This document shows, one piece after another, positions 5,411 to 56,118 of a stretch of DNA of 64,000 nt (the first letter of the stretch is position 1; each line of letters opens with the position of its first letter). The position numbers were made by a program, and so were the translations under genes. The notes under the pieces are model-generated. The model searched no databases. It was given only the letters and a program-made list of their open reading frames with translations, and was not told the origin of the DNA. Origin of the DNA: Gallionellaceae bacterium (lineage in GTDB: Bacteria > Pseudomonadota > Gammaproteobacteria > Burkholderiales > Gallionellaceae); contig JAVBYO010000002.1 in NCBI GenBank assembly GCA_030823955.1, forward strand, positions 62,001 to 126,000, written 5' to 3'.

Positions 5411-5601
5411 ATCAAAACTCCTGAAACGTTTGTGGATAACTCTTTCAGGAACGAAGTTTGAATTTTTATCCACATAATGTACACAGCCTTCGCTACTGGT
5501 TTTTGGCAACAAAATAAGTGTTCAATTTAATGTATTTAAATAGAAAAGACTGTTATCCCCAATTTTGACCATGATTGTTATAGCTATTAAGGATATATAG
5601 A
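5411..5601. promoter_or_regulatory. oriC: Putative oriC-associated region (dnaA-dnaN intergenic) with DnaA boxes
   Basis: TGTGGATAA at 5431-5439, TTATCCACA at 5466-5474 and a TTATCCCCA-like site near 5554; AT-rich; flanked by dnaA and dnaN. Confidence 0.6.
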
Positions 5602-52579: not shown

Positions 52580-53644
52580 ATGAACTTCAAAGTAAAGAAC
52601 GACACTTTTTTGCGCGCGTTGTTGCGAGAGCCTACCGAATACACTCCATTGTGGATGATGCGCCAGGCAGGCCGTTACTTGCCGGAATACTGTGCCACGC
52701 GCAAGCGCGCAGGCAGCTTCCTCGACCTGTGCAAGAGCCCGGACATGGCGACGGAAGTGACCTTGCAACCGCTGGATCGTTTCCCGCTGGATGCCGCCAT
52801 TCTGTTCTCCGACATCCTGACCGTGCCCGATGCGATGGGCTTGGGACTGTATTTTTCCGAAGGCGAAGGCCCGAAGTTCGAGCGCCCGCTGAAGACGGAA
52901 GCCGAAATCAAGGCGTTGCGCGTGCCGGACATCGGCAAAGATTTGAAATATGTGACCGATGCGGTAACGCAAATTCGCAAAGCGCTGGATGGGCGCGTGC
53001 CGCTGATCGGTTTCTCCGGCAGCCCGTGGACCCTGTCCTGCTACATGGTCGAGGGCGGCAGCAGCAGCGACTACGCCAAGGTGAAGACCTTGATGTACAA
53101 AGAGCCCAAGCTGATGCACCACATCCTCAGTACGACTGCTGATGCCGTGACGCAATACCTGAACGCGCAGATCGAAGCTGGCGCGCAAGCCGTGATGATC
53201 TTCGATTCCTGGGGCGGGGCGCTGTCACACGGCGCGTATCATGAATTCTCGCTGCCCTATATGCAGCGTATCGTGGCCGGGCTGATCAAGGAAAAAGACG
53301 GCGTACGCATCCCTTCCATCGTGTTCACCAAGGGCGGCGGATTGTGGATCGAGAGCATCGCCGATATCGGTTGTGACGCGGTCGGTCTGGACTGGACCAT
53401 GGACATCGGTGTGGCGCGTCAGAAGGTCGGCCACAAAGTCGCGCTACAGGGCAATATCGACCCGACGGTCTTGTTCGCCACTCCCGATGTGATTCGCAAC
53501 GAAGTCGAGAAAGTCTTGGGCAGCTATGGTTACGGTAGCGGTCATGTGTTCAATCTGGGGCACGGTATCTCGCAATTCACTGACCCGGACAATGCCGCCG
53601 CGCTGGTGCAAGCCGTGCATGAGCTCAGCAAAAAATATCATTAA
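52580..53644 (+). CDS. hemE: Uroporphyrinogen decarboxylase
   Basis: [40 protein letters not shown]. Confidence 0.98.
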
Positions 53645-53666: not shown

Positions 53667-53675
53667 TTATACACA
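53667..53675 (+). promoter_or_regulatory. DnaA box (TTATACACA)
   Basis: Matches TTATNCACA; hemE-priA intergenic. Confidence 0.55.
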
Positions 53676-53691
53676 AGGCATCGGATCAGAC

Positions 53692-53724
53692 AAAGGCCGC
53701 AGGTTGTTTCCTGCGGCCTTTGTT
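53692..53724 (+). terminator. Intrinsic terminator after hemE
   Basis: AAAGGCCGCAGG-TTGTTT-CCTGCGGCCTTT. Confidence 0.85.
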
Positions 53725-53830
53725 GTTTGTTGCGCAATACGTTGATAAATAAGCCATAATTATGCAGCCCGAAATTTGGGCAGAGCAAAAAACCGTATAT
53801 ATCATTAGCAGTTAGCCGTATTGTTGAGAC

Positions 53831-53867
53831 CTTATGCACATAGTTATCCACAGGATTTGTGCATAAG
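53831..53867. promoter_or_regulatory. Palindromic array of three DnaA boxes upstream of priA
   Basis: CTTATGCACA-TAGTTATCCACAGGATT-TGTGCATAAG: TTATGCACA (53832-53840), TTATCCACA (53844-53852), TGTGCATAA (53858-53866). Confidence 0.75.
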
Positions 53868-53937: not shown

Positions 53938-56118
53938 ATGCCCATAGTTCGAATCGCGCTGGATGTGCCTTTGTCAACCCTGTTCGATTATCTCGTCGGG
54001 GCGGATATCGCGGTCGAAACAGGCCAGCGCGTGCTGGTTCCGTTCGGGCGCAAACAGCTGGTGGGCATCGTGATGGAATTGTCGGAGGATTCCGATCTGG
54101 CAACGGATCGCATCAAGTCTATCGTGCGCGTGCTGGAAGATGTGCCGCCGTTGCCGGCTGAACTGCTGACATTGTTACGGTTTTGCAGCGAGTATTACCA
54201 TCATCCGCTGGGCATGACCGTTATGTCCGCGTTGCCGGCACGTTTGCGCGCGCAAGAAGTGGTCACAATAAAGCAGGAGTCGAGCTACCTTCTGTCGGAG
54301 CGGGGACGGATGCTCGATCTGGAAGAGTTCCCCAAGCGCCGCCAGGTACAGCGGCGCATCTTGCAGGCCTTGCATGAAGGCCCTGCCAGCGAAACGAAAT
54401 TGCGTGTGTTGTCGTCCAGTGTATCGGCCAATCTCAAGGTGCTGCTGGAAGAGGGCTGGGTGGAATGCAGCGTTGTACCGGAACTCGCACCCGAGGCGCA
54501 CGTCTTTAACGACGTTCACGTTTTATCCGAGGCCCAGCAGCGCGCGGTGGATGCCGTGGCCGCAGCGCGGGATTACCGCTGCTTCCTGTTGCACGGTATC
54601 ACCGGTAGCGGCAAGACCGAGGTGTATGTGCATCTGATGCAACAGGTGTTGCACCGCGGCGGACAGGTGTTGCTGTTGGTGCCCGAGATCAATCTCACGC
54701 CGCAATTGGAGCAGTATTTTCACGACCGTTTTCCCGATACCGAGCTGGCCAGTCTGCACAGCGGGCTAAGTGATGGCGAACGGGTAAAGAAATGGCTGCG
54801 CGCACAGTCTGGCCGCGCGCGTATCGTGCTCGGCACCCGGCTGGCGGTGTTCACCCCGCTGCCGCGACTCGGTCTGATCCTGGTGGATGAGGAGCATGAT
54901 GCCTCGTTCAAGCAACAGGACGGCCTGCGTTACTCGGCCCGCGATGTCGCCATCTTCCGCGCCAATCAGCGCGGAGTGCCCATCGTGCTGGGCTCCGCCA
55001 CACCGTCGCTGGAAAGTTACCACAATGCGCAAAGCGGGCGTTATCAACTGCTCAAGCTGGCGCAACGCGCAACCGAACAGGCACAATTACCGCAAGTGCG
55101 CTGCCTGAACATTGCGAATACACCGCTGCAGGACGGTCTCAGCCCAGCCATGCTGAGCGCACTGGAGCTGCGTCTGCAACGCAAAGAACAGAGCCTGGTG
55201 TTCATCAACCGTCGCGGTTATGCCCCGGTGCTGATGTGTACCGCCTGCGGCTGGCTGTCGGGTTGCACAAAATGCGCCGGCAAACTGGTGCTGCATCTGA
55301 AGGACCGCCGTTTACGTTGTCACCACTGCGGCCATCAGGAACGTGTACCCCATGCCTGTCCGGGTTGCGGCAACACCGATCTGCAGCCGGTCGGTATCGG
55401 TACGCAGCGTGTCGAAGAAGCGCTACGCACACACTTTCCGGCGGCGCGTATCTTGCGGGTGGACCGGGACAGCACGCGCAATAAAGGCGCGTGGAGTGTG
55501 ATGCGCAAACAGATCCACGATGAAGAGGTCGATATCCTGGTGGGAACCCAGATCCTGGCGAAAGGCCACGACTTCCCCAATCTGACGCTGGTCGGGGTGC
55601 TGAATCCGGACGGAGCGCTGTACAGTGCGGATTTTCGCGCCTCGGAAAAACTCTTTGCCCAGCTCGCGCAGGTGGCCGGCCGCGCCGGGCGCGCCGACAA
55701 GCCGGGAGAAGTATTGGTACAGACTGCCTTTCCCGACCACCCTTTATTCCGTGCATTGCGGGCGCATGATTTCGACACATGGGCGCAGATATTGCTAGCA
55801 GAGCGTCAGTCGGCGGACTTTCCGCCGTTCGCCTATCAGGTGTTGTTAAGTGCCGAAGGCAGGCAGGAACAGGAGGTATACACCTTCCTGCAACAGGCGC
55901 GCGGACAGGCGTTGCAATTGGCCATGCCGGTGGACGTGTATAGCGTGCTTCCATCCGCTTTGCCGAAGCGAGCGAACCACTTCCGCGCGCAACTGCTGGT
56001 GCAGAGTGACACCCGCAAAGCGCTACAGACATTCTTGCGAGTATGGAAGCCGTTACTGGATGGGTTGCCCGCGCAGAAGCTGCGTTGGTCGCTGGACATC
56101 GACCCGCTGGAATTTTAG
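53938..56118 (+). CDS. priA: Primosomal replication protein N' (PriA helicase)
   Basis: LLHGITGSGKTEVYVHLMQQVL, VDEEHDASFKQQDGLRYSARDVA, Cys-rich zinc region CTACGWLSGCTKC...CHHCGHQ. Confidence 0.97.
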   Translation: MPIVRIALDVPLSTLFDYLVGADIAVETGQRVLVPFGRKQLVGIVMELSEDSDLATDRIKSIVRVLEDVPPLPAELLTLLRFCSEYYHHPLGMTVMSALPARLRAQEVVTIKQESSYLLSERGRMLDLEEFPKRRQVQRRILQALHEGPASETKLRVLSSSVSANLKVLLEEGWVECSVVPELAPEAHVFNDVHVLSEAQQRAVDAVAAARDYRCFLLHGITGSGKTEVYVHLMQQVLHRGGQVLLLVPEINLTPQLEQYFHDRFPDTELASLHSGLSDGERVKKWLRAQSGRARIVLGTRLAVFTPLPRLGLILVDEEHDASFKQQDGLRYSARDVAIFRANQRGVPIVLGSATPSLESYHNAQSGRYQLLKLAQRATEQAQLPQVRCLNIANTPLQDGLSPAMLSALELRLQRKEQSLVFINRRGYAPVLMCTACGWLSGCTKCAGKLVLHLKDRRLRCHHCGHQERVPHACPGCGNTDLQPVGIGTQRVEEALRTHFPAARILRVDRDSTRNKGAWSVMRKQIHDEEVDILVGTQILAKGHDFPNLTLVGVLNPDGALYSADFRASEKLFAQLAQVAGRAGRADKPGEVLVQTAFPDHPLFRALRAHDFDTWAQILLAERQSADFPPFAYQVLLSAEGRQEQEVYTFLQQARGQALQLAMPVDVYSVLPSALPKRANHFRAQLLVQSDTRKALQTFLRVWKPLLDGLPAQKLRWSLDIDPLEF

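Follow-up and report, generated by a model that had tools for sequence, protein, structure and literature searches.

In a Gallionellaceae bacterium, the intergenic region between hemE and priA carries a three-box DnaA array, together with predicted integration host factor (IHF) and Fis sites, that very probably forms a DnaA-reactivating sequence (DARS). The region lies in a 64-kb stretch of contig JAVBYO010000002.1 (the window) from a 2.25-Mb assembly, and genome-wide counts rest on searches of that assembly. Our analysis points strongly to positions 53735–53866 as a DARS-type element that would release ADP from DnaA, because the geometry of its three-box core, the IHF and Fis sites at fixed offsets from this core, and the deep conservation of the whole all favor that reading; most of the beta- and gammaproteobacterial genomes in our sample share this layout. 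The geometry, the positions of the sites, their conservation and genomic spread, and the fact that the genome encodes DnaA, Hda, IhfA, and a Fis-like protein are direct observations.

The boxes of the array start at 53832, 53844, and 53858, giving offsets of 0, +12, and +26 with orientations +, +, and −. On the reverse strand of Escherichia coli K-12, the boxes of DARS1 (bioD–uvrB) and DARS2 (rppH–mutH) have identical offsets and orientations, and both DARS sites have been described as having equal spacing of three boxes, box I being in the opposite orientation to the other two (PMC5742627). When mismatches were scored over the whole three-box arrangement, the window had 0, a second copy elsewhere in the same assembly 1, DARS1 2, and DARS2 3. 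In contrast, the E. coli datA region, E. coli oriC, and the oriC region of the Gallionellaceae genome had 6, 8, and 7 mismatches, respectively, and the best scores in 20 Markov surrogates of the window, which served as the baseline, were 6–8. Core identity is 29/35 bases with DARS1 and only 24/35 with DARS2, which also differs in genomic place (rppH–mutH rather than hemE–priA). Like a DARS, the array is intergenic and lies outside oriC, ∼48 kb from dnaA.

The array also stands out by box density. The window holds 8 matches to TTATNCACA, compared to 1.3 ± 1.0 expected from shuffles, none of which (0/100) reached 8. The assembly as a whole holds 31, and its densest group is that between hemE and priA, with four perfect matches in 200 bp, three of them within 35 bp; the second-densest group (G000:C20:7385-7542) is itself the second copy of the hemE–priA element. 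An earlier sequence-only reading of the window had described a remote cluster here, consisting of four perfect boxes with a 10-bp inverted repeat around the central one, about 48 kb from dnaA, and had counted two canonical boxes between dnaA and dnaN. All four boxes, the inverted repeat, and the distance were confirmed, the two dnaA–dnaN boxes were found at 5431 (−) and 5466 (+), and the genome-wide density bears out the prominence of the cluster.

A conserved upstream module emerged from a core-anchored alignment of the 120 loci listed in the scan of named genomes described below. All of them were selected as having an exact core, and related loci do not count as independent; the proportions are therefore descriptive. 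Among these loci, 16 of the 31 exact matches to the IHF consensus within 520 bp lie at −98 or −99 from box III, and 33 of the 87 exact Fis matches lie at −66. With up to one mismatch allowed, 64/119 of the loci have an IHF site at the expected position, versus 0 in control windows, and 84/119 have a Fis site, versus 4 in control windows. Within the family, all 26 priA copies have both sites within two mismatches, and column identity is 1.0 for box II, 0.77 for the IHF site, 0.72 for the Fis site, and 0.53 for the DNA between. The Fis-type site of the window, GCCCGAAATTTGGGC, has one mismatch to the strict consensus GnnYAnnnnnTRnnC.

DARS2 shares the 0/+12/+26 core with box I opposed, and its IHF and Fis sites flank the core beyond box III (PMC4245941); similarly, the window has a predicted IHF site on that side and a flanking Fis site. 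DARS1 has the same core geometry but no IHF consensus at −97, and it requires no additional factors in vitro (PMC5742627). The predicted order of the accessory sites is swapped relative to DARS2, since in E. coli that site has IHF sites at −87 and −71 and a Fis consensus match at −125, and its essential Fis sites, FBS2-3, are described as lying farther out than IHF (PMC4245941), whereas here the order is core, Fis (−65), IHF (−97). A separate observation is that the block AAAAAACCGTATATATCATTAGCAGTTAGC (53786–53817) is conserved in the family as well as the Fis and IHF sites are, and a TTAGC motif recurs ∼30 bp beyond the core, on its opposite side.

The core is retained across many relatives. 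Of 30 priA loci fetched, 29 were checkable (L016, whose match is cut by a contig end, was excluded), and in 26 of these the array lies 104–108 bp ahead of the PriA match. The three priA loci without the array (G021, G028, and G024) belong to genomes that have a core elsewhere: G021 and G028 have one each at xseA/exbB, and in G024 the core lies apart from priA, its IHF and Fis sites intact, near a ychF-like gene (a name given by eye, from the translated sequence). At least one core with no more than one mismatch was present in 57/61 relatives, commonly two per genome, and a reversed control pattern had no match in the same 61. Moreover, the exact core, CACANNNTTATCCACANNNNNTGTG, occurs in 189/276 genomes of the class, while the same pattern with box II shifted by 1 bp occurs in 0/276; this sequence comparison thus indicates strong selection on the spacing of the boxes. 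When the phylum was sampled, the only matches beyond the class came from six families (f201, f205, f209, f211, f222, and f238).

The second core of the assembly (G000:C20:7508-7542) is likewise intergenic, between xseA and an exbB/tolQ-like gene, so that the Gallionellaceae genome, like E. coli with its two DARS sites, has two. Some genomes have more. One genome of the same family has a third core (L203; G014:C15, ∼170.9 kb) that comes with IHF and Fis sites and is found elsewhere than at priA or xseA, and a 3.1-Mb genome outside the class (G368, family f201) has eight exact cores, some other f201 members having two or three. Palindromic double cores, on opposite strands with a 12-bp offset, occur in G332, G132, G266, G535, and G372, and two or three cores or near-cores lie within ∼1 kb of each other in L081, G045, and G557, which suggests local duplication of the element.

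A scan of named genomes, with one genome per Genome Taxonomy Database (GTDB) species, gave at least 120 loci, of which those listed are nearly all from beta- or gammaproteobacteria and include Pseudomonas, Acinetobacter, Legionella, Aeromonas, Nitrosomonas, Azoarcus, Xanthomonadales, Methylomonas, and Marinobacter. When nearest neighbors were assigned by clustering of neighboring genes, priA (24), hemW (12), and xseA (11) were found among the 120 loci listed, and priA, where adjacent, is nearly always directly downstream in the same orientation. Two of the listed loci, both from Aeromonas, lie upstream of uvrB on the strand opposite to it, matching E. coli DARS1 in place and relative orientation, so that position, and not geometry alone, ties the motif to DARS.

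Table 1. Features of the hemE–priA intergenic region and neighboring genes, in window coordinates
Feature	Position	Strand	Remarks
hemE, uroporphyrinogen decarboxylase	52580..53644	+	TIGR01464
Fourth DnaA box, TTATACACA	53667..53675	+	165 bp upstream of box III, just past the hemE stop codon
Terminator-like hairpin of hemE	53689..53724	+	Separates hemE from the element
Predicted IHF site, CAATACGTTGATA	53735..53747	+	−97 from box III; perfect YAANNNNTTGATW
Predicted Fis-type site, GCCCGAAATTTGGGC	53767..53781		−65 from box III; fits the symmetrical degenerate GNNYRNNNNNYRNNC
Conserved block, CAAAAAACCGTATATATCATTAGCAGTTAGCC	53786..53817		Between the Fis site and box III; mean column identity 0.78–0.84
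DnaA box III equivalent, TTATGCACA	53832..53840	+	Offset and orientation of E. coli DARS box III
DnaA box II equivalent, TTATCCACA	53844..53852	+	Near-invariant in 26 family copies; mean column identity 1.0
DnaA box I equivalent, TTATGCACA on the − strand	53858..53866	−	Opposed to box II
priA, replication restart helicase	53938..56118	+	NF004067 and TIGR00595
dnaA	4076..5410	+	GC-skew minimum (oriC) here

NCBIfam confirmed the identities of hemE, priA, dnaA, and dnaN (Table 1). The fourth DnaA box, outside the array, has no more than one mismatch in most relatives whose locus was read in the right orientation and may match the accessory boxes of DARS2.

In E. coli, the mechanism of DARS is established, and IHF and Fis activate DARS2 (PMC8682772, PMC4245941). 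By analogy, boxes I and II would each hold an ADP–DnaA molecule, the two meeting head to head via their AAA+ domains, and a third molecule would occupy box III; the flank would be bent, and the complex stabilized, by IHF at −97 and Fis at −65. ADP would then leave, and the apo-DnaA released would bind ATP and could fire oriC again. For the element described here, binding, ADP release, and an effect on initiation timing are all expectations transferred from E. coli. The protein partners are encoded in the genome: it has Hda (above the curated cut-off), IhfA (above cut-off), and a Fis-like protein with 35% identity to E. coli Fis. Its DnaA is 51% identical to that of E. coli and keeps the box-contact and AAA+ residues R399, R407, Q408, H434, D269, R285, and L290.

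Several observations weigh against a DARS-type element. The DnaA residue aligned to E. coli R227, the AID-1 Arg, is Asn. The priA copy is ∼48 kb from dnaA, or ∼0.04 of a replichore, whereas in E. coli both DARS sites lie in the middle of a replichore, and timing is moderately impaired when DARS2 is moved closer to oriC (PMC5742627). The predicted Fis site lies between the core and the IHF site, while the essential Fis sites of E. coli DARS2 are described as lying beyond IHF (PMC4245941). In addition, the IHF site of the xseA copy is weak, with two mismatches, and the assembly is incomplete (85%). With regard to position in other genomes, the two cores of the single-contig relative G020 (2.72 Mb) lie 280 kb and 813 kb from dnaA, and those of G043 (5.2 Mb) about 0.1 and 1.4 Mb from it.

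In this family, 71 bp separate the end of the array from the priA start. The sequence-only reading had raised control of priA by DnaA. In such a scheme the array, just upstream of the start codon, would be a DnaA-responsive switch that acts on priA in step with replication. The 24 priA-adjacent loci among the 120 listed, nearly all with priA downstream in the same orientation, fit this scheme, and a weak promoter-like match at 53777–53805 would place the array in the priA leader, but that match gives no above-chance signal. Because the module is also found, with IHF and Fis at unchanged offsets, at xseA/exbB, hemW, uvrB, and other genes, and in G024 is located away from priA, control of priA cannot be the main reason for its conservation. 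Such control may coexist with a DARS role as a side effect; as the explanation of the array itself, we regard it as improbable.

It is also very unlikely that the array is a plain DnaA titration cluster or a datA-like site, which would lower free DnaA or promote hydrolysis of its ATP. The strong boxes near oriC and the single IHF site would suit either role, and E. coli datA, too, combines DnaA boxes with an IHF site outside oriC. However, titration needs no base-exact spacing, yet a one-base shift of box II abolishes all matches, and E. coli datA lacks the geometry of the array, its six mismatches being at the level of random DNA, and has the opposite biochemical role. Bacillus subtilis likewise has DnaA-box clusters outside oriC, in a cell without IHF, DiaA, or Hda in which DARS loci are absent (PMC13220808). 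Of the datA/DARS-like role that had been suggested for the array, the DARS-like part is strongly supported by the geometry, the IHF and Fis offsets, and the conservation, and the datA-like part finds no such support. A replication origin, or its remnant, beside hemE would account for DnaA boxes that adjoin this gene, as oriC does in Caulobacter, but cumulative GC skew along the contig is lowest at dnaA rather than at priA or the array, and genomes carry the module at several places, so that we give this idea almost no credence. A mobile or plasmid origin was rejected, there being no similar DNA in the plasmid collection, as was an RNA element, for which Rfam matches were only sub-threshold.

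DARS itself is known; the swapped accessory order, the locations, and the breadth of distribution are the new parts. A 2014 paper limited conservation of the DARS2 core to E. coli-related gammaproteobacteria (PMC4245941), one later review places DARS in beta or gamma species proximal to E. coli (PMC5742627), and another notes DARS-similar sequences in many proteobacteria (PMC10380432). Literature searches, outside which subscription papers mostly fell, found no report of placement at priA or xseA or of the core–Fis–IHF order, and searches on DARS in betaproteobacteria, Legionella, or Burkholderia and on DnaA boxes with priA and hemE, with the same limit, found no such sites described. We lean, by a modest degree, toward a model in which the core–Fis–IHF form, with sites near −66 and −98, is widespread and perhaps ancestral in the beta- and gammaproteobacteria, with a favored place upstream of priA, and in which E. 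coli DARS1 and DARS2 are derived.

If this is true, then DNA-driven reactivation of DnaA would be a general feature of the class and not a trait of the E. coli group. DARS has so far been worked out in E. coli, and a signature of fixed spacing that picks out some one or two candidates per genome brings tests of DnaA recharging within reach in Nitrosomonas, Pseudomonas, Acinetobacter, Xanthomonadales, and iron oxidizers. Furthermore, the differing order of the Fis and IHF sites offers a natural way to test how the core is activated by bending proteins.
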